Under the pieces are notes generated by a model. It was given only the letters and a program-made list of their open reading frames with translations. It searched no databases and was not told the DNA's origin. The position numbers and the translations under genes were made by a program. This document shows positions 5,965 through 60,911 of a stretch of 64,000 nt of DNA, piece after piece. Each line of letters begins with the position of its first letter. Positions within the stretch are counted from its first letter, which is position 1. The stretch is from Thermogemmata fonticola. GTDB taxonomy: Bacteria > Planctomycetota > Planctomycetia > Gemmatales > Gemmataceae. The stretch is taken from positions 1 to 64,000 of the forward strand of contig NZ_JACEFB010000012.1 in the NCBI RefSeq assembly GCF_013694095.1, written 5' to 3'.

Positions 5965-6014
5965 CACCTCTATGACTAGGAAAGACCCCTGCATCCCACC
6001 AGAGCTTTCCTAGA

Positions 6015-6629
6015 TTAGCGCGGCACTTTCCACACCCGCACCGCCTTGTCCTCACCCCCCGACACCACCACACCACCATCAGCACTCACGGAAACACCAG
6101 ACACCCCACCCTCGTGCCCCTCCAGCCGATGCCGCAACTGACCACTCACACCATCCCACACCAACACCTGACCATCACCACCCCCCGACACCACCACCCC
6201 ACCATCACCACTCACGGAAACACGCCGCACCCCACCCTCGTGCCCCTCCAGCCGATGCCGCAACTGACCACGTACTCCATCCCACACCAACACCTGACCA
6301 TCCCCACCCCCCGACACCACCACCTTACCATCACTACTCACGGAGACACCATGCACCACACCCTTGTGCTCCGCCAGCCGATGCCGTAACTCCCCACTCT
6401 TCCCATCCCACACCAACACCTGACCATCACGACCTACCGACACCACCACACCACCATCCCCACTCACAGATACACCCCACACCTCACCCTTGTGCCCCTC
6501 CAGCCGATGCCGCAACTTCCCACTCTTCCCATCCCACACCAACACCTGACCATCATCACCCCCTGACACCACCACTCCACCATCCCCACTCACGGAAACA
6601 CCTCGCACCCAGTCCTTGTGTCCCTCCAG
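6015..6629 (-). repeat. WD40-coding tandem repeat units (copy set 2)
   Basis: Five tandem units of 126 nt (starts at 6629, 6503, 6377, 6251 and 6125 on the minus strand), each coding one WD40 blade of 42 residues. The last two units are closest to those in the 111-1817 gene. Together with set 1 they form long inverted repeats separated by about 4.2 kb. Confidence 0.85.
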
Positions 6630-8972
6630 CGTGCATAATAACTCCGGTTCCTTCATATTCAAATCAGGCTCTCCCTCTTGCTTGTCATTTTGTGCTAAAT
6701 CCGAGTGTTTATTTGTTGCTGACTTTAAGTCATTCGTGTCTAAATTGTGATCTTCTTCCTTTTCAGTATTTTGATTAGTCACTTGTTCCATTTCTGACTT
6801 TATCAAGCTCTTAGTCCACCACCATCCACCTGCAACAAGACTAAGCCATGCTATTATCATGATTAGTAACGCTACTGATACTGCCTCAATAACATAGGGT
6901 CGTGCCCGTTCCCACATCCATAACTTATTACTTCCACTTGCTGACACTTCCCACACACCCTCACCCTCGTAGTTCCTCAAATGGAATGAAACCCACTGCA
7001 CTGTCGTTGTCTGACCTTGGACCAGTCTTGCCACCTGAAACGCCGAGTACCAATACTTGATATTTTTCCAAACAAGGAACAATAGACAAATAAGTGCAGG
7101 TAAACCCCATACCCCAAGACCAAAATAACCAAATCCATACCCCAAAAACCACCGCAATATATTAATCGCTAAAAATAAAATTGAGAATATAAGAATAAAA
7201 AAGATAGATATAAAACCAGATATCATTGCAAGAAATTTGATATTATACCATATTAGAATTGAACATAAAGGAATAGATTTCCAAATACCAACAGGTAAAT
7301 TAATTATTTTTTTGATGAAAGTATATGTTGGTGACCATAATAAAGGTAATATATACCATACTCTAATAAATATATAAACTATTTTTTCTACCAAATATCT
7401 GTAATCTCGATTCTTATGGCGTGCAGATGCTGGAACAATCGGTGCTATTGGGGAGCCGGAAGATGGATTAGCGGCCCCACCTAGCGCCCCCGCAGGAGTA
7501 GGAGTTGCTGGCAACTGAGCTGCAGTATGAGGAGATAATCCCGTCGCAATATTTGATGATGATAGAGATGCTGTTCCAGAGGATGCACCCGCTGTTGGCG
7601 CTGCCTGCTGAAGACTCGCTGTACCCATAGAGGTTCCGGTCGTGTCCCTTGCAGGAAAGGAAGTAGCCGCCGAGACTCCCCCGGACGCCAAATGCCCACC
7701 TCCCAAGCCACTACCCCCCTCTAAACCCAACACCTGCACTACCTCTCCCTCTTGCCACCCTTCCAGTCCTGCCACCTCCTTCACCTCAAAACCGTCATAC
7801 CGCACCAACTCCCCCAACGGCTTCACCTGATCAACCCCACCCCGCAACCCCAACACCAGATGACCCACCAACCGCCGCAACCCCTCCTCACCACTCCCCC
7901 ACAGCTCCCGCAATAAACCCGATCCTCCCGGATGGACAAAATCCCCCTCCGTAAACAAAATGTTGTCCCCCTGATCATACCGTTGCCACAAACCCCCACG
8001 ATCCCCACTCGCCGCCAACGCATACAAACCCGTGTACATCACCAACAGCGGAAAATGATCCATCGCTGGTCCATAATAACCCTCACGACCCGGATGCTGA
8101 TAATGCCGATGCCCATACTCCCCCGACGGAATCCCCGCCACCGCCGGGACCCACATCCCGTCATAATCCACCAACCGCATGTCATAACCCATCACTCCAC
8201 CACTGCCACCCCCCACCCCCTCCAAAATGATGAGGTTCCCATGCTGAATATCCCCATGGGCAATCTCCTGCTGCACCAACTGCTGCGACAGGTACCACAA
8301 CAGATACATCAAACTCCGTAACCCCGTCCCCTTCTCCAATCGCCCCGCCACAAACTCCCGACACGTCAGACCTTCCACCCACTCCATCTTCACCACCGGA
8401 TACCACTCATTCCGCACACGAATCCCCCGCTCCAAATACTCAAACGGCACCATGCAGGACAACGACCGACTCTGCAAATGCCTAGCGATCGCCGCATACC
8501 GCTGCTGCAAATTGGCCACCGGACGTGTGAAACACTTCACCGCCCACTCCTGCCCCTGCCGACTCCGCAGCCGAAAAACGACGGCAAAGTTACCGCTACA
8601 GGAGACAGGCAGCCCCATACGGTTAGTCACCGCTTCAGCCTGCTGCAACTCTGGGTCGGCAAAGCGCGTCGGCGGGGATTGCACCGCCTCGAAATAGTCC
8701 ACATCGGTTGGCCACATGGTGGGTCCCTCAGGCGTCGGCCACGCCCTTCCGGGGGCGTACCCCTTCGGTCCGTCCCGGGGGTGGGCGAGGTTGTCGCTAT
8801 TGTAACTCATGGTTTCCCCCGACGGTAGCAGGATGGAGCTTGCTTTTCGTGTTCGTCGGACTGCCCGCGGCTTTGGTCGGACGAAGAGCAAACCGTAGAA
8901 GTTATGGGAATGTTGGTAGGAGACGGCGCTGCTGTTGGGCGGGTTGTGGGGTGTGGGTCGTCGGCGTGTCAT
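6015..8972 (-). CDS. Atypical protein kinase-like membrane protein with WD40 repeats
   Basis: 985-aa protein in four blocks. Residues about 100-370 form a kinase-like fold whose catalytic loop reads HGDIQHGN (about 239) and whose metal motif reads DYDG (about 268); this HGDxQHGN family is known from planctomycetes and cyanobacteria and keeps both key aspartates. A Ser/Thr/Ala/Gly/Pro-rich linker follows. Residues about 515-725 contain five or six transmembrane helices, coded by unusually AT-rich DNA. After a charged linker, five WD40 units (from residue about 781) end the protein. Topology suggests kinase and propeller on the same or opposite faces depending on helix number. ATG at 8972 has AGGAGG 8 nt upstream; ATG at 8810 (MSYNSDNLAH) has GGGGGA and is the alternative. 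It faces the 111-1817 kinase convergently. Confidence 0.82.
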   Translation of the reverse strand: MTRRRPTPHNPPNSSAVSYQHSHNFYGLLFVRPKPRAVRRTRKASSILLPSGETMSYNSDNLAHPRDGPKGYAPGRAWPTPEGPTMWPTDVDYFEAVQSPPTRFADPELQQAEAVTNRMGLPVSCSGNFAVVFRLRSRQGQEWAVKCFTRPVANLQQRYAAIARHLQSRSLSCMVPFEYLERGIRVRNEWYPVVKMEWVEGLTCREFVAGRLEKGTGLRSLMYLLWYLSQQLVQQEIAHGDIQHGNLIILEGVGGGSGGVMGYDMRLVDYDGMWVPAVAGIPSGEYGHRHYQHPGREGYYGPAMDHFPLLVMYTGLYALAASGDRGGLWQRYDQGDNILFTEGDFVHPGGSGLLRELWGSGEEGLRRLVGHLVLGLRGGVDQVKPLGELVRYDGFEVKEVAGLEGWQEGEVVQVLGLEGGSGLGGGHLASGGVSAATSFPARDTTGTSMGTASLQQAAPTAGASSGTASLSSSNIATGLSPHTAAQLPATPTPAGALGGAANPSSGSPIAPIVPASARHKNRDYRYLVEKIVYIFIRVWYILPLLWSPTYTFIKKIINLPVGIWKSIPLCSILIWYNIKFLAMISGFISIFFILIFSILFLAINILRWFLGYGFGYFGLGVWGLPALICLLFLVWKNIKYWYSAFQVARLVQGQTTTVQWVSFHLRNYEGEGVWEVSASGSNKLWMWERARPYVIEAVSVALLIMIIAWLSLVAGGWWWTKSLIKSEMEQVTNQNTEKEEDHNLDTNDLKSATNKHSDLAQNDKQEGEPDLNMKEPELLCTLEGHKDWVRGVSVSGDGGVVVSGGDDGQVLVWDGKSGKLRHRLEGHKGEVWGVSVSGDGGVVVSVGRDGQVLVWDGKSGELRHRLAEHKGVVHGVSVSSDGKVVVSGGGDGQVLVWDGVRGQLRHRLEGHEGGVRRVSVSGDGGVVVSGGGDGQVLVWDGVSGQLRHRLEGHEGGVSGVSVSADGGVVVSGGEDKAVRVWKVPR

Positions 8973-54086: not shown

Positions 54087-55547
54087 TTAGTCGTCTGTCT
54101 CTCGACTCCCCACGGCAACTAGTGACGTCGGCTTGCCATCAAATGTGAAGGCCGCCACGGGTTCCAGAGTCTTCAACGAGAGCACGACTACGGTCTTGTC
54201 CGCCGGGTTGGTCAGGAAGCCGAATTGCTTCTCAGCATCGAAGGTGAGGTCATGGTGGCCGAAATGCCCCTCGACCGCGCTGGCTCCGACAGTAAGAGTC
54301 TTGATCAATTTCGCATCCTGGAGCTTGCCATCACGGTCGGGGTCCAGGTCGATGACGTGAAGCACTTCCGTGGCATTTTCCACCGGTTTGACACGATCAC
54401 AGAACACGAAGGCATACAGCGGGCCGTAGGCGGTGTCCGCGAGGATTGGCGTGACCGGTTGTGTGCCTGGCGGTACGGGGAGGGGGACATACCACGGTTG
54501 GGGCTGCTCTGCGCGGGCATCCAGGATGGCGAGCGCAGCTTGCACGGTCTTGCCCGTGGTGAACAGCACATAGTTTTTGTGAGTGGTGAAGGCCCCGGTA
54601 CGGCGTGGTTTGTCGTCTTCGGTACCGAGATCGATGTGATGCACTTTCACTGTATCTGGCGTCTGCCGCAATTCGAGATCCGCAGCCACCCAACAAATGC
54701 CGGCGCTTGGAGCAAAAAAGACCTTGCCGGCAGCAGTAGTGGCGCCGTGGATTCCGCCGCTAGGTAGATGGAAGGAGTAGGCAGGCGAACCGGCTTTGTC
54801 TCCCTGTATCGGAGTGACATCGACTCGTCCTTTATTTGACCCGCCGCCATCAATCCAGCAAGAGTAACCCACCTTATCCTCCACCACGGCTAAGGTGATG
54901 TGGTTGCCGCCGCCAGAGATGAAGCGGGGCGTGTCTTTGTGAAGGACACCCTCTTTGGTTTTCTGATAGCGGCTTGGGTCGATCCGGGTGTAGCCGTTGC
55001 GGCGATCATTGGCGAGGAAGAATTTACCATTGTACACGTACAGGTGGGCTGGATTACCCTGTTGGTCATCAAGTTTTTGATCCCAGACTAGAGGTGTCCG
55101 GCGGAAGTTCCAATGTCCGTGATCACCGTGATCGATGTAACGCACCCCGGTATCCAAAAGGACCCAGCCGCTCTGAAATGTGCCATCGGCATCGTCACGG
55201 ACCCCGACAAGGAGGATATGATCCACGACATCCATCTGCACAAGTTTCTGCCGCTTAGGGTCGAGGTTGGGAAAGCCGTCCACCGTAGTCCAGGGATCAT
55301 GCAACCACTGGTTCCCTTCACCGAGGCGAACAGTTGTCCATTTGAGGGTGCAGTTGTCAAGGTCCTGGACAAAGAGGCGGGTCAAGGGGCGGGGTTGGAC
55401 GTTTTTCTTCCCTGGCTCGTCGTGATTCCCCGCAGAGGAGGAAGAAAGCGGCGATGATAGCCCCTCTTCCCGCCCATTGCAGCCGATGATTTGGCTAAGC
55501 AGGGCGATGAGAAGCACCAGAGACAGACCCCACAAGCGGCGTAGCAT
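54087..55547 (-). CDS. Beta-propeller lipoprotein with His clusters (AztD-like?)
   Basis: 486-aa protein with a lipobox (LLSQIIGC, Cys about residue 23), so probably lipid-anchored. The mature part has repeated propeller strands and two His clusters: YIDHGDHGHW and GHFGHHDLTF. His-rich propellers of similar type include AztD, a periplasmic zinc chaperone; that match is by resemblance and not certain. Two ATGs are in frame (55553 and 55547); GGAGGT is directly before 55553, so spacing favours 55547. The terminator at 54002-54035 lies downstream. Confidence 0.7.
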   Translation of the reverse strand: MLRRLWGLSLVLLIALLSQIIGCNGREEGLSSPLSSSSAGNHDEPGKKNVQPRPLTRLFVQDLDNCTLKWTTVRLGEGNQWLHDPWTTVDGFPNLDPKRQKLVQMDVVDHILLVGVRDDADGTFQSGWVLLDTGVRYIDHGDHGHWNFRRTPLVWDQKLDDQQGNPAHLYVYNGKFFLANDRRNGYTRIDPSRYQKTKEGVLHKDTPRFISGGGNHITLAVVEDKVGYSCWIDGGGSNKGRVDVTPIQGDKAGSPAYSFHLPSGGIHGATTAAGKVFFAPSAGICWVAADLELRQTPDTVKVHHIDLGTEDDKPRRTGAFTTHKNYVLFTTGKTVQAALAILDARAEQPQPWYVPLPVPPGTQPVTPILADTAYGPLYAFVFCDRVKPVENATEVLHVIDLDPDRDGKLQDAKLIKTLTVGASAVEGHFGHHDLTFDAEKQFGFLTNPADKTVVVLSLKTLEPVAAFTFDGKPTSLVAVGSRETDD

Positions 55548-55626
55548 GGTCATACCTCCGTACCGAGTTGGTGAGCGAGTCGGGGGGCAGCGAATCCTGA
55601 GTCAAGAGCCATAAGCCCATCGACTT

Positions 55627-57081
55627 TCATCGCGAAGAAGTCCCCGTCGGCTGGCGGATGACGATCAGTTCGGTGCCTGTGCGGACGATGAAGGCGCCAT
55701 CCACCGCGGCAACAGCGTAGACCACATCTCCAACCGTGGCGTAGCGGACGGCCTGCATCTCTTCCGGCGGAACAACCGGCCCTCCAGCCGGTCCCTTTCC
55801 CGGCGGCGGGGGTGGCAACTTCTTCTCCGCCTCTTTTCGGGCTTCAGCCAACCGGGCGGCGTATTCCTCGGGTGTCCAAAGACGGTTGACAGCCAGTTTC
55901 TCAAATTCTGCTCCACTCTTGAGGACGATCGTGATCCCCTTCTTGCCGAAGAAGTAGATGCGGTCTCCCGCGGCAATGGGTGTTGCCCAGACCTCATCTT
56001 CCAAGCGTTCAACGTAACGTGGCTCACCGGTGCGGGCATTCAGGCAGTGCACCATTCCCTCGCGAGTAAGGAAGTACACGTGCCCATCGTAGATTAGGGG
56101 GCTCGCAAAGGCACTCACCGCCTTCTTCCCCGGCCAGACCTGAGACAAGCTCCATTGTCCATTTTTGTGTTGCAAACGCAGCAGGCAGTTGGAACGAGCG
56201 GAGGCGGCGGCATCGGGCTTGAGGCGGTTGACCCCCGCTCCCAACACAATCCACTCCCCCTCGGCCACTGGGGAGGCGATGTTTAGCCCGACCAGATTGT
56301 CCAGAGTGGCCAAGACTTTACCCGTGGCGGCGTCATACACGGTGACGGTGTCTCCAGAAGCAACGACCACCACGGTAGTGTCATCGACTTGGGTCACCAC
56401 AGGTGAGGTCCACGAAGTCCGCGACGGGCGATCCGCTTTCCAGCGTGTCTTACCGGTGGCCTTGTCGATAGCCACCAGGTAGGAGGGGCCGGAGTGATCG
56501 ACCAGGATGAACAGTTGCTGGGCATCCTGGGCTAAGGAACTGGCCAGTTCATGATTGTTCTTGATGGCTCCATAGTCCTGGCTCAGGGAACGCTGCCAGC
56601 GGAGTTTGCCGTCGTGTTGCAGGGCGATCAGGTCCCCGCTTTCAAAGAAGCAGTAGACTCCTTGTTCATCTGCGATGGGGGTGGACGCAGCCCGGCTCAT
56701 CATCGGATTGTTCCGCCCTTTCTGACTGGCGGAAAATTCCTTGTGCCAGACCACCCGACCATCCCTCAGGCGTACAGCTACAATGTGCAGCTTTTCTTTC
56801 TGCTCTCCTTCGACGGCGGTGACATAGACCTGTCCCTTCCAGACGACCGGCGACGACTGGCCGTAACCTGGCAGACGGATGCGGAAGGCGATGTTCTTTT
56901 GGGGGGACCACTCCAGCGGCAGGTTCCGGGCCACAGTGACGCTGCGGCCATCACCGCGGAAACCGGGCCAGACATTTCCTGCCACCCCAGCCGGGGATGA
57001 ATCCTCACGCGCGTCAGACGGCGTGCCGACACCGCTGAGGACGATGCTCCAGCCGACGAGCCAGCTCCAGGTTGCTGTCAT
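55627..57081 (-). CDS. PQQ-binding-like (BamB/quinoprotein-type) propeller protein
   Basis: 484-aa exported protein with a signal peptide (WSWLVGWSIVLSGVGTPSDA). The repeated blades contain the tryptophan-docking pattern such as GKLRWQRSLSQDYG and KTRWKADRPS, as in PQQ-like propellers. Such proteins are abundant in planctomycetes and usually lack enzymatic motifs. A Pro-rich insert (KKLPPPPPGKGPAGGPVVPP) occurs near the end. Ribosome site AAGGAG precedes the ATG. It lies 80 nt upstream of the lipoprotein gene on the same strand, so cotranscription is plausible. Confidence 0.85.
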   Translation of the reverse strand: MTATWSWLVGWSIVLSGVGTPSDAREDSSPAGVAGNVWPGFRGDGRSVTVARNLPLEWSPQKNIAFRIRLPGYGQSSPVVWKGQVYVTAVEGEQKEKLHIVAVRLRDGRVVWHKEFSASQKGRNNPMMSRAASTPIADEQGVYCFFESGDLIALQHDGKLRWQRSLSQDYGAIKNNHELASSLAQDAQQLFILVDHSGPSYLVAIDKATGKTRWKADRPSRTSWTSPVVTQVDDTTVVVVASGDTVTVYDAATGKVLATLDNLVGLNIASPVAEGEWIVLGAGVNRLKPDAAASARSNCLLRLQHKNGQWSLSQVWPGKKAVSAFASPLIYDGHVYFLTREGMVHCLNARTGEPRYVERLEDEVWATPIAAGDRIYFFGKKGITIVLKSGAEFEKLAVNRLWTPEEYAARLAEARKEAEKKLPPPPPGKGPAGGPVVPPEEMQAVRYATVGDVVYAVAAVDGAFIVRTGTELIVIRQPTGTSSR

Positions 57082-57276: not shown

Positions 57277-58296
57277 TCAATCATTTCCCGGAAGAACCTC
57301 CCCTCCTGCGCGAGTCGCCATGGCTCGCCAGACGGCTACCGGGATGTCGTTCCGAATGAAGCGCACGCTGCCGTCGGCAAAACAGCAGTTGACACCTCCT
57401 GCGAAGAAGCTGCGGGCGGTGTACCAACCGGCGCCATGCCCTAGACAGTCCGGAATTGCACTGTTCGGCGGCAGGTAGGCGTTGAAACAGGTAGCTGCCA
57501 GGTCGGGTTGGATCCAACCTCCGCCGCGCGCCCCACGCCATTGGGTGGCACTCACACATTCACTTTCCGTAAGCGGAGGGTTCAAACCCAGGGTTGGGTC
57601 AGGTCTGCGTCCTGCGGAGCGGTTGGCCGAGTGGCGGGCCGGGCCGGTAGGCCGCGGTCCTGTGACATCGTAACCGGCGCCCAGGATGGTTTGCGACAAA
57701 AGCAGCGTGTTGGAAGTGCCATCGGTAATGTCAGTCAACTTGACACGAGAACCACGCCAGAAAACGCCATCGGTCGGCGCAGAATGCGAGACATACGGAC
57801 CCACGCCGCTCCCCACGTTGATCACGTAATTCGTGCCGGCCAGGGTCGCCGCGAAATAGTTGCGGAAAAGAGGGTCCTGGCCATCCGCCGGGCAGAGGAA
57901 CAGCTTGACCACCGTTTGAGCCGCGGCAGCATGGACGGGATTGAGTGTCCGCCACGGCCCGCTGCCGAGGTAGAGCGGCTGCCTCAAGTCGATCAAGCGC
58001 TGCAAGTTTTCCTGCTCCACATACGGCAGAATCTGGGCGTGGGCTGAGAAGCCGTAGTTGATAGAGCCGCTGACCGGGCCTTCCGCCGCCGGCAGTACTT
58101 GCAAGGCATCATGATGATTGTGCATCGCGAGTCCCAGTTGCTTGAGATTGTTTTGACTCGACAAGCGTGCCGCGGCTTCACGGACCTTTTGCACCGCGGG
58201 GAGCAGCAGGCCGATCAAGATGGCGATAATCGCAATCACTACGAGCAACTCGATGAGGGTGAACGCCGCCCGCGACATTGGCCGGATAATCTTCAT
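57277..58296 (-). CDS. DUF1559 prepilin-type protein
   Basis: 339-aa protein with a type IV prepilin-like N-terminus, AFTLIELLVVIAIIAILIGL, including the conserved FTLIE motif and the Glu needed for prepilin processing, followed by AVQKVREAAARLSSQNNLKQ. The rest is the DUF1559 domain with the planctomycete motif NHHDALQVLP and FFAGGVNCCFADGSVRFIRN at the C-terminus (the H-X9-DG motif of the family). These proteins form a major planctomycete family with pseudopilin-like signals. Start ATG 58296 has GGAGG 8 nt upstream and the strong promoter at 58350-58377. Confidence 0.92.
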   Translation of the reverse strand: MKIIRPMSRAAFTLIELLVVIAIIAILIGLLLPAVQKVREAAARLSSQNNLKQLGLAMHNHHDALQVLPAAEGPVSGSINYGFSAHAQILPYVEQENLQRLIDLRQPLYLGSGPWRTLNPVHAAAAQTVVKLFLCPADGQDPLFRNYFAATLAGTNYVINVGSGVGPYVSHSAPTDGVFWRGSRVKLTDITDGTSNTLLLSQTILGAGYDVTGPRPTGPARHSANRSAGRRPDPTLGLNPPLTESECVSATQWRGARGGGWIQPDLAATCFNAYLPPNSAIPDCLGHGAGWYTARSFFAGGVNCCFADGSVRFIRNDIPVAVWRAMATRAGGEVLPGND

Positions 58297-58336
58297 GGTG
58301 TATCCTCCACATGACTACGATAAACCAGGTTCCATG

Positions 58337-58378
58337 ATTGACAACATTGATATTACTAAGTAATACCATACAGTCAAT
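58337..58378. promoter_or_regulatory. Symmetric bidirectional promoter with nested palindromes
   Basis: On the minus strand TTGACT (58377-58372) and TAATAT (58355-58350) are spaced by 16 nt and drive the DUF1559 gene with a leader of about 45 nt. On the plus strand TTGACA (58338-58343) and TAATAC (58361-58366) are spaced by 17 nt and face the TPR gene. Both share a centre: ATTGAC at 58337-58342 mirrors GTCAAT at 58373-58378, and TATTAC at 58351-58356 mirrors GTAATA at 58360-58365. The dyad could also be a repressor site. The surrounding 130 nt is AT-rich. Confidence 0.6.
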
Positions 58379-58643
58379 CCTCCGAACAAAAATTTTTTCC
58401 GGACTTACGTAAAATATCTTTTTACAACATATTACGATTAGGAAATTTGAAGATTCCGAGCATCAGCTTTCCGCTAGCGGGATCGCGTCGTGGTGGGAGA
58501 TAATGATGGTCGAGGGGTGTGACGTGGTCGAGTGGCACGGGGATGATTCCTCGAAGCCAGAGGCATCAAGCCAACGGTCAAGGTGTCTGAGTGTTGTGAG
58601 TGCAGGAGTGGTCTCCAGGAAATGCGGCAGGGAGGATGGAATC
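58379..58643. other. AT-rich leader/intergenic region before the TPR gene
   Basis: This extends from the bidirectional promoter to the TPR start. It has runs such as AAAAATTTTTT near 58390 and is AT-rich to about 58450, then GC-rich. No gene is seen. A long leader of about 270 nt for the plus-strand gene would follow if the promoter is used. Confidence 0.4.
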
Positions 58644-60050
58644 ATGGGCCGCGGAGTGGCAAGTCTGGCGGTGGTAGTAGTGCTGATGCTGGCGGACGGT
58701 TCAGCAGCATGGGGCCAGTTCCGGGCCGGTTTCTTGCCTCCGTCGGGCCGAGGGGTGGTGCGTGGCGGTGGGGTTGGCGTGATCATTCCGGGCCGGCGCG
58801 TCATCATCTCCGGTTTTGTCGGAGGGTTTGGGTATCGCTATTGGGATTGGGGGGGCTGGGGACCCGCCGGCTGGTATGGCAGGGGTCCTTGTGGTGGAAT
58901 CTTGGGATGGGGCAGCACCCCCTGGTTTGGACCTTCGCGGTGGTGGATCGGCGGCTGGTGGTATCCACCGGTGACCACGTGGACGCCGGCTGGGTGGGTC
59001 CCTGGCTTTTTACCGCCGGGTTGGGGCGTAGGGCCGGGATGGAACGTTGGTCCTTGGGGCGTCTGGCCGGTGATGTGGGACGATCCCTGGCTGGGGCCGC
59101 TGGGCTGGCCGTTGGTTCAAGCGCCGCCGGACCCCGACCTGCCGGGAGCATTTCGAGCGGCAGACCAGATGGCAATGCGTCCGGCAAACCCGCTCCGTGA
59201 GGGGAGGATAAATCCTCCTCCAGTCCAGGCACGGGATGCAGAAGTCTGGGATGGCCATCGGCTAACACCTCCGCCTCCGGAAGCGCCGCGGGAGTTCCTC
59301 GTGATCAGCCCGCAACAACCAGGAGCAATCGCCGCCTCGTCGGTGCCGCGTCGTGTTGCCCAGGCAGAGCCTATCCCTCCCGCGACTTCCCAGAAGGGGG
59401 GAGCACAGCCTTTCGGGGATTATTTGGTGATCAGTCCCCAGAGAAGTGGCGTACCGAGGATTCAGGAGCCGAAGGTTACACCGTCAGTCCATCGCGGCGC
59501 AGAACCGGTCAGCACAGTCCCCGAAGCGGCCGTCGGGGCTATGCCTTTTCGGGTGGACCCCTTTGCAGTACCCCTCGCCTTGAAGGTGGAACAGCCCGAT
59601 CCCGATCCTCGCAAGGAAGCGCAGCGTCTGGTTCAGCAGGGCCGGGCGGCCTTTGCGGCGGGTGAATATGGTCGGGCAGCTCGGTTATTCGCAGGGGCGG
59701 CAGAGAAAGACCCGGATTTACCCTTTCCCCGTTACTGGCAAGCTCAAGCGGAGATCGCCGCCGGGCGCTATGCCGATGCCTTTGCCGCTTTACGCCTGGG
59801 ACTGCAACGCCATCCCCAAGCGGGGCCGCATTTCGATCCCAAGGAACCGTATGGTTCCCAGCCCCGAAAATATGCCGATCATCTAGCGGCACTGCGTCGG
59901 GCGGTGGCGGATCAACCCCAGGAGCCGGCCCTCGCCTATCTACTGGCCTGGCAACTCTGGTTGGCCGGAGAAAAAGCCGAGGCCCGCCGCTGGTGGGAGC
60001 GATCCCAAACCCTCGGCGGACCCACGGATTGGCCGGCCTTATTCCCGTGA
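58644..60050 (+). CDS. Secreted Gly/Trp-rich protein with C-terminal TPR repeats
   Basis: 468-aa protein. It has a signal peptide (MGRGVASLAVVVVLMLADGS), a low-complexity Gly/Trp/Pro segment at 66-155 with 19 tryptophans (W67 to W155), a Pro-rich disordered middle and a C-terminal helical region with TPR-like pairs (GRAAFAAGEYGRAARLFAGA, then WQAQAEIAAGRYADAFAALR). ATG at 58644 has GGAGG upstream, which sets it over the frame start at 58503. No enzyme motif. Its Trp-rich part may bind a glycan or stack in a matrix, which is speculation. Confidence 0.72.
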   Translation: MGRGVASLAVVVVLMLADGSAAWGQFRAGFLPPSGRGVVRGGGVGVIIPGRRVIISGFVGGFGYRYWDWGGWGPAGWYGRGPCGGILGWGSTPWFGPSRWWIGGWWYPPVTTWTPAGWVPGFLPPGWGVGPGWNVGPWGVWPVMWDDPWLGPLGWPLVQAPPDPDLPGAFRAADQMAMRPANPLREGRINPPPVQARDAEVWDGHRLTPPPPEAPREFLVISPQQPGAIAASSVPRRVAQAEPIPPATSQKGGAQPFGDYLVISPQRSGVPRIQEPKVTPSVHRGAEPVSTVPEAAVGAMPFRVDPFAVPLALKVEQPDPDPRKEAQRLVQQGRAAFAAGEYGRAARLFAGAAEKDPDLPFPRYWQAQAEIAAGRYADAFAALRLGLQRHPQAGPHFDPKEPYGSQPRKYADHLAALRRAVADQPQEPALAYLLAWQLWLAGEKAEARRWWERSQTLGGPTDWPALFP

Positions 60051-60166: not shown

Positions 60167-60634
60167 TTACTTCTTCCGAATCTGGACAGCATGGAGGAAG
60201 AAGTTGCGGTCGTATTCATTTTCCTTGTAAGCGTCGTTGAGGAAGGCGATTTCCAGCTTCTGCTTTCCGCCGGCTAGTTTGGCTGTGAAGGAGTACTTTT
60301 TTCGCTCTTCACCGGTGCAGGTGTGCTCTTTGACGACGACCGTCTCGCCGCAGGTGATCCGGAACTTCGCCAGTTCCTTTTGCGCTTCGGTGCAACTGGC
60401 TTCGATGGTGATGGCGTACTCGCCCGCTTCCGGAAGATGAATTTCTGCCACGGCTGACCCATTCGTGTAAAAGTAAAAACGCTCTTCGCCGGGGTCGTAA
60501 CCGCCCAATTCCTTGCCGCCTTCAAAAGCCGGCTTCCATTGGAATTCGCTGAGAGGGGGGATTTTCACGTCCTCGGCTGCGAGGATCGTACTGCAAAGAC
60601 CTCCTGCTAGTGCGAGACAGACGACCAGACGCAT
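60167..60634 (-). CDS. Small secreted beta-sandwich protein, CBM60-like
   Basis: 155-aa protein with a signal peptide (MRLVVCLALAGGLCSTILAA) and a beta-sandwich with GEYAITIEASCTEAQ, KFRITCGETVVVKEHTC and KLEIAFLNDAYKENEYDRNF. The NDAYKENEYDRN end resembles calcium-dependent xylan-binding modules (CBM60/36 type), where a DxYxxN... loop binds calcium. The match is by eye and moderate. ATG at 60634 has AGGAGG upstream. Confidence 0.6.
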   Translation of the reverse strand: MRLVVCLALAGGLCSTILAAEDVKIPPLSEFQWKPAFEGGKELGGYDPGEERFYFYTNGSAVAEIHLPEAGEYAITIEASCTEAQKELAKFRITCGETVVVKEHTCTGEERKKYSFTAKLAGGKQKLEIAFLNDAYKENEYDRNFFLHAVQIRKK

Positions 60635-60911
60635 GCGAACGGCCTCCTGGAAAAACATGGGTTTCCGGCAGCGTAGATGATGCAGGGAGCAGACTTGACT
60701 TGAAACAATAATAGGACAAAACCGATAACCCAGCCAGAGCGCAACCGAGGAAAGGGAACCGAGGAGGAGAGGAACGGCATTCCGCTAAAATGTTAGCCCA
60801 GAAGCCGATGGCCTTGCATTCGGAATGCATCCGTAAGAGGGAAGGAAGTACGTACGGGAAGGGAACGCTGATTGCCCAGAAGACACCAATTTCCAGAGGG
60901 ATGGATCGGGG

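Follow-up and report, generated by a model that had tools for sequence, protein, structure and literature searches.

A conserved palindromic box ahead of a DUF1559 pseudopilin gene cluster in Gemmataceae, probable operator of a metal-starvation operon

The closest described counterparts of the locus analysed here are the Zur regulons, such as aztABCD and znuABC of Paracoccus denitrificans. A passage of PMC6103462 gives the form of Zur boxes as a 7-1-7 or 9-1-9 palindrome. Passages of PMC6689063 place aztD under Zur control, report ZnuA-family, Fur-family and CobW genes as common in its vicinity, and describe the ligand residues of its product AztD, a periplasmic zinc metallochaperone with a beta-propeller fold (6CK1, 6CMK, 6N01). 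The DUF1559 family is a large planctomycete expansion without assigned function, counting 74 genes in Rhodopirellula baltica (a passage of PMC2754498), 68 paralogues without known function in Planctopirus limnophila (a passage of PMC10632474) and 49 PF07596 (DUF1559) matches in the genome considered here (4.8 Mb). In the literature searched, no main text pairs DUF1559 with zinc or Zur, AztD with planctomycetes, or 'Fur family' with Gemmata and zinc, and the excerpts returned for Zur with pseudopilins or for Gemmataceae with zinc held nothing on point; the excerpted part of PMC3087516 treats ribosomal protein S4 and names no planctomycete Zur box.

We analysed a stretch of 64 kb (hereafter the window) of this planctomycete genome of 4.81 Mb. 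Between two divergent genes lies a near-perfect inner palindrome, ATTACT-A-AGTAAT (58352-58364), which extends to TGATATTACTAAGTAATACCA (58348-58368, centre 58358, no strand). This 21-bp candidate Zur-like box has the 7-1-7 core TATTACT-A-AGTAATA and lies over the spacer and -10 of a promoter, and so matches the form of a Zur box. It probably serves as operator to an operon induced by metal starvation, most likely of zinc, under the control of a Zur-like Fur-family repressor for which the gene at G000:C6:76766-77107 is the candidate. As in the Zur regulons, a palindromic box stands on the promoters of a ZnuA-type gene and of a gene cluster that encodes an AztD-like protein, the genome has a Fur-family gene, and CobW/COG0523 genes occur nearby in relatives; unlike in those regulons, a DUF1559 pseudopilin leads the cluster, a PQQ-like propeller is included, and the regulator is a candidate only. 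We know of no Zur box that reads TATTACTwAGTAATA.

The presumed operon runs leftward on the minus strand, and its three genes would be carried in one transcript. The first (57277-58296) encodes a DUF1559 pseudopilin, 87% identical to its counterpart in the sister species G001 (the one other genome of the genus in the comparison); in the pseudopilin the prepilin N-terminal motif (N_methyl, 28.7 bits) and PF07596 (154.2 bits) both score above cut-off; it shares with the DUF1559 planctomycete pseudopilins the same N-terminal methylation motif and the H-X9-DG C-terminal motif, and the operator distinguishes its gene from 44 other DUF1559 genes of the genome whose upstreams were examined. The residues that set this pseudopilin apart from its paralogues form no clear metal site. 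The second gene (55627-57081) encodes a PQQ/BamB-like beta-propeller protein (PF13360), and the 195-bp gap between it and the first may hold another promoter. The third (54087-55553) encodes an AztD-like predicted zinc metallochaperone, a beta-propeller with an HGDHGH motif, recognised by Foldseek, VIA-align and a profile.

The promoter of the DUF1559 gene, on the minus strand, has a -35 hexamer TTGACT (58372-58377) and, inside the operator, a -10 hexamer TAATAT (58350-58355), spaced by 16 bp (58377-58372 to 58355-58350), with a Shine-Dalgarno sequence GGAGG at 58304-58308. Because the operator overlaps the -10 and the greater part of the spacer, RNA polymerase would be blocked by a dimer bound there. 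A -35 matching at 5 or more of 6 positions at the expected spacing is found in just 3 of 21 genes (the window's own, that of G001 and L028, the latter two with TTGACA at the matching place), and the exact promoter layout thus varies.

The earlier note on this DNA had seen in the same site two near-consensus promoters facing opposite ways on a shared dyad. Its geometry stands: the repeats are nested, and an outer inverted repeat, GATTGAC (58336-58342) and GTCAATC (58373-58379), spans 58336-58379 without strand and takes in both opposed TTGAC-type -35 hexamers. The promoter matches are less secure; 6 kb hold 3 promoter-like sites against 1.7 +/- 1.1 in shuffled sequence, and they are thus not clearly beyond chance. 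The outer repeat by itself is not special; GATTGAC-N20-50-GTCAATC occurs at five places in the genome, 58336-58379 included (reversed control, 0). The plus-strand promoter-like sequence TTGACA (58338-58343)-17-TAATAC (58361-58366), at 58338-58366, is doubtful, and its -10 agrees with TATAAT at 3 of 6 positions. In the alignment with G001, the inner palindrome is kept, and so is the minus-strand promoter (as TTGACA-17-TAATAT, with an identical -10); the forward -35 TTGACA and the outer left arm GATTGAC are lost, so that one of the two promoters, and not both, is kept where the gene pair is kept.

These results bear on the proposal that a true bidirectional promoter lets one repressor co-regulate the DUF1559 gene and the divergent, plus-strand Trp-rich TPR gene, which the sharing of one centre by the opposed hexamers and the retention of the gene pair in the sister species would favour. 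We regard it as improbable. Besides the missing forward -35 in G001 and the poor forward -10, the leader of the TPR gene would be about 270 nt long, as its start, by alignment with G001, is the ATG at 58644, 286 bp from the dyad centre (an upstream ATG at 58503 falls outside the part aligned with G001). Among the matches listed, the TPR and DUF1559 genes are neighbours only in this genome and G001, and of 28 loci with TPR homologues in other Gemmataceae (28 of 36 such matches, the other 8 coming without a locus), none has a site of at least 13 bits or a pseudopilin motif nearby; a scan of genome contigs with the TPR alignment returned only the sister-species MAG. The suggested coupling of the two genes thus lacks support, and the suggestion of one repressor for both survives in half, as the palindrome looks like a conserved repressor-type operator on the DUF1559 promoter and the TPR partner is unsupported. 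The palindrome is best explained as the operator of one leftward operon rather than as a bidirectional promoter. On the TPR side, 69 bp from the main site, there is a weak and doubtful second motif match (58417-58437, no strand, 13.7 bits); in G001 the sole other match listed scores 8.3 bits and lies at a different place. Beyond the TPR gene the window encodes a CBM60-domain protein (60167-60658), and a similar open reading frame, judged by eye, adjoins the TPR gene in G001 (L003 601-1164).

For the family-wide comparison, we sampled the upstreams of DUF1559 relatives in 95 genomes of the family, of paralogues in the genome itself and of 20 more. Expectation maximisation on 23 upstreams of DUF1559 relatives (200 bp each) yielded TGGTATTACTwAGTAATACCA, and the result was again palindromic when the palindrome constraint was removed; the log-likelihood was 182, against 32-38 for six mononucleotide-shuffled sets run with fewer restarts. 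Among the 25 closest DUF1559 genes in Gemmataceae, defined by a tblastn score of at least 300 bits, 21 are preceded by a site of at least 11.4 bits, the exceptions being L014, L025, L118 and L119. Motif discovery and the genus-held-out test both used 23 genes, of which L117, which meets the 300-bit cut, joined the set after its upstream had been seen; L118 and L119 also meet the cut, have no site and were counted among the controls, and the proportion is hence 21 of 25 and not 21 of 23. The 71 control DUF1559 upstreams (L118 and L119 included, and some with uncertain start codons) reach at most 10.3 bits, which rejects the idea of a box common to all DUF1559 genes.

When genera were held out in turn, the last group being a mixture, the motif was recovered every time. 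Learned without this genus, it gives the window's own site 27.1 bits and that of G001 23.4 bits; 18 of the 23 genes scored above the highest shuffle of their group and 21 above its 95% level (L020, L022 and L032 above that level only; L014 and L025 gave nothing). Three more distant DUF1559 genes, in G002, G004 and G031, also have a site, and the box is therefore not confined to one clade. A DNA search with 141-191 bp around the site found nothing outside this genome, so that conservation is visible only as the motif. Several DUF1559 relatives carry two or three copies of the box; in G099 (L254 888-939) and G032 (L265 6492-6542), two copies stand about 30 bp apart before a DUF1559 gene, perhaps for cooperative binding. 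In G002, a 21.9-bit site (L276 1501-1531) directly precedes a DUF1559 gene that is not among the 25 closest relatives.

An AT-rich palindrome arisen by chance would suit the composition of the intergenic stretch 58297-58440, which is 33% GC and in which simple promoter matches are not clearly beyond chance. With the motif built from the upstreams of relatives, 58348-58368 scores 28.6 bits, the next best site in the 64 kb scores 13.7, and 47.9 Mb of simulated sequence contain no site of 22 bits or more. Together with the held-out score and the sites before the relatives and before a second gene of this genome (znuA-B, below), this places the inner palindrome far beyond chance; conservation across genera refutes a chance origin, to which we would give next to no credence.

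The gene order behind the operator is conserved as well. By tblastn with the window genes, over 23 loci with the window included, a PQQ-like gene follows the DUF1559 gene in 18 and an AztD-like gene is present in 11, to which G025 adds a fragment located at the end of a contig. All 11 loci with the AztD-like gene have a site of at least 16.5 bits. Four loci have neither the PQQ-like nor the AztD-like gene; two of these have a site (the first copy in G064, 19.5 bits, and G034, 14.9 bits) and two have none. Homologues of the ZigA/COG0523 zinc GTPase lie near the operon in relatives: divergent from it in G028 (where the protein passes the ZigA cut-off, 611 against 600) and in G010 (there in pieces), close by in G008, and as a weaker match in G064; the window itself has no ZigA match at 1e-8. 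In other genomes, an operator flanked by divergent genes has a ZigA-type GTPase gene (G028, and in pieces G010) or a ZnuA-type gene (G004) as the partner. In G016 and G076 a Fur-family gene lies 3-4 kb from the operon.

At 0.001, neither Pfam nor NCBIfam yields a match for the product of the third gene (488 residues), and a single-sequence search of PDB sequences found none at E<=1. A profile of 11 sequences has as its best PDB hit AztD of P. denitrificans (6CK1), at E 0.092, far weaker than the E < 1e-20 by which the AztD paper defined sequence similarity. The predicted structure (pLDDT 74.7, pTM 0.79; an earlier model built on four sequences was poor, with pLDDT 53.9) has an AztD-like fold: the first nine Foldseek rows are all AztD, with TM-scores of 0.54-0.57 by query length, and VIA-align gives AztD a Z of 29.9, with an rmsd of 3.9 over 361 residues, the next protein being NirF at Z 25.5. 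A shared fold by itself is no proof of function; the ligand residues and the genomic context lend the assignment further weight. In the profile alignment, H99-G100-H102 and H124 of AztD fall on the invariant residues H142-G143-H145 and H170. At zinc site 2, the H, G and H are invariant in the 11 aligned sequences and a His takes the position of AztD D104. Of zinc site 1 (H124, H167 and H218 of AztD), H124 falls on H170, and the window protein has two further invariant residues, H218 and H269, with similar spacing, though the profile does not align them. From the described AztD the protein further differs in its low identity (13-19% in the structure-alignment rows) and in that no ABC transporter gene of the aztABC kind adjoins it in the window. 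We regard it as a predicted zinc metallochaperone of AztD-like type.

The box also recurs before transporter genes. ZnuA genes split by score into two groups, and those of group B were absent from motif training and are therefore out-of-sample. In group B, 12 of 13 upstreams exceed the 99% null level and 11 of 13 reach at least 10 bits; all 13 box centres lie at -121 to -170 from the matched domain, and in 11 of 13 the box, as read by eye, follows a TANNAT hexamer. The genome's own group-B gene, znuA-B, carries the same box at 25.0 bits, and its product has a His-rich loop and AztC as its best NCBIfam match, below cut-off. In group A, 3 of the 30 best-scoring genes and none of 5 further genes have the box, and group A was thus rejected as the main target.

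The position of the znuA-B palindrome after a -10-like hexamer means that it would be transcribed, and as RNA the palindrome of the window could form a stem of 9 bp closed by a 3-nt loop, as expected if it acted as a leader RNA hairpin (attenuator or riboregulator) instead of a DNA operator. At the DUF1559 promoter the palindrome covers the spacer and -10, and would therefore mostly not be transcribed; moreover, its halves do not covary (paired cells make up 68.6%, and in shuffles 69.1%), which disfavours a hairpin, and we hold this alternative to be very improbable.

A wider search of the 95 genomes with the core pattern, one mismatch being allowed, turned up 32 sites, spread over 22 genomes; the reversed control had 8, in 7 genomes. 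Of the 22 loci that the search yielded, 12 show one of three kinds of gene at the site: a DUF1559 gene in L137, L140, L141, L148 and L157, a ZnuA-type gene, in several cases with an adjoining ABC ATPase gene, in L144, L150-L155 and L157, and a ZigA gene in L137. The other 10 are without evident zinc link, and two of them (L138 and L149) have no site of at least 14 bits. A profile search of 13 genomes at E<=3, a loose first look in which at most 150 candidates were scored per genome, found two places each in this genome and G001, namely this operon and znuA-B, and nothing in G063, G032 and G010 despite their known boxes. Its profile was made from 29 chosen sites, among them sites from most of the genomes searched, and it is thus not an independent test, as the held-out and group-B tests are. 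It also returned a place before another DUF1559 gene in G002, and places without evident assignment in G089 and G076. Sites of 23.9-24.3 bits precede genes without evident zinc link in G095 (L146 1499-1519), G084 (L142 1499-1519) and G069 (L245 4687-4707), one of them adjoined by a pterin dehydratase-like open reading frame.

With regard to the regulator, one Fur-family match was found in the genome, the candidate named above, and it is as the sole such gene that this homologue is proposed to be the repressor. It scores below the cut-off of every NCBIfam model that it matches (Fur, 63.6 against 146; Zur, 57.3 against 167). There is no box of at least 10 bits before the fur genes of this genome and G001, and none of at least 12 bits before 30 fur genes examined, so that no sign of fur autoregulation through the box was seen. 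In G031, whose assembly is 92% complete, a 24.6-bit site is present, yet no Fur-family match was found. An alternative is that the same operator serves a sensor of iron or manganese instead of zinc, or a repressor that does not belong to the Fur family. The Fur homologue is indeed unclassified, with Fur and PerR model scores slightly above that of Zur, all below cut-off; some members of the ZnuA family bind manganese, and the genome's znuA-B has manganese models among its matches, again below cut-off. Genes for PepSY-type membrane proteins are often iron-regulated, and in G092 a 27.5-bit site (L145 1499-1519) precedes a gene that resembles one by eye and is possibly an iron-related target. Against this, zinc is indicated by ZigA, by the AztD-like chaperone and by a ZnuA that has a His-rich loop and whose best NCBIfam match, below cut-off, is AztC, and we judge another metal or another repressor family to be unlikely, if less so than the bidirectional promoter.

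We infer from this gene content that the signal of the metal-starvation operon is zinc. When zinc is sufficient, a dimeric zinc-sensing repressor of the Fur family would occupy the box, over the -10 and spacer; when zinc falls, the repressor would leave the box, and the operon would be transcribed together with the znuA-B transporter gene. The operator would thus tie one conserved branch of DUF1559 to metal, probably zinc, homeostasis, on separate grounds: a zinc-type transporter gene has the same box, the cluster encodes an AztD-like chaperone, and ZigA homologues lie nearby. One would accordingly expect a small metal regulon in Gemmataceae, and the pseudopilin would have a signal open to test. 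One might speculate further, as a possible but rather doubtful extension, that this DUF1559 branch is a zinc-acquisition device, in which the pilin-like protein would build or load a short surface or periplasmic fibre that, under zinc starvation, collects zinc or displays the two propellers, PQQ-like and AztD-like, the zinc being passed to ZnuA-B. If this is true, a single branch of a very large family would acquire a defined role, and a zinc regulon would be defined in Planctomycetes.

Within 17 kb of G004 lie a ZnuA-type gene, several ZigA homologues, a distant DUF1559 gene and, by eye, ATPase-like and permease-like open reading frames; the same region (L242, G004:C12:20000-37000) has three sites, two of them 23 bp apart. 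Elsewhere in the window, at 6001-8000, the GC content drops to 0.505, with a strong negative GC skew of -0.43.
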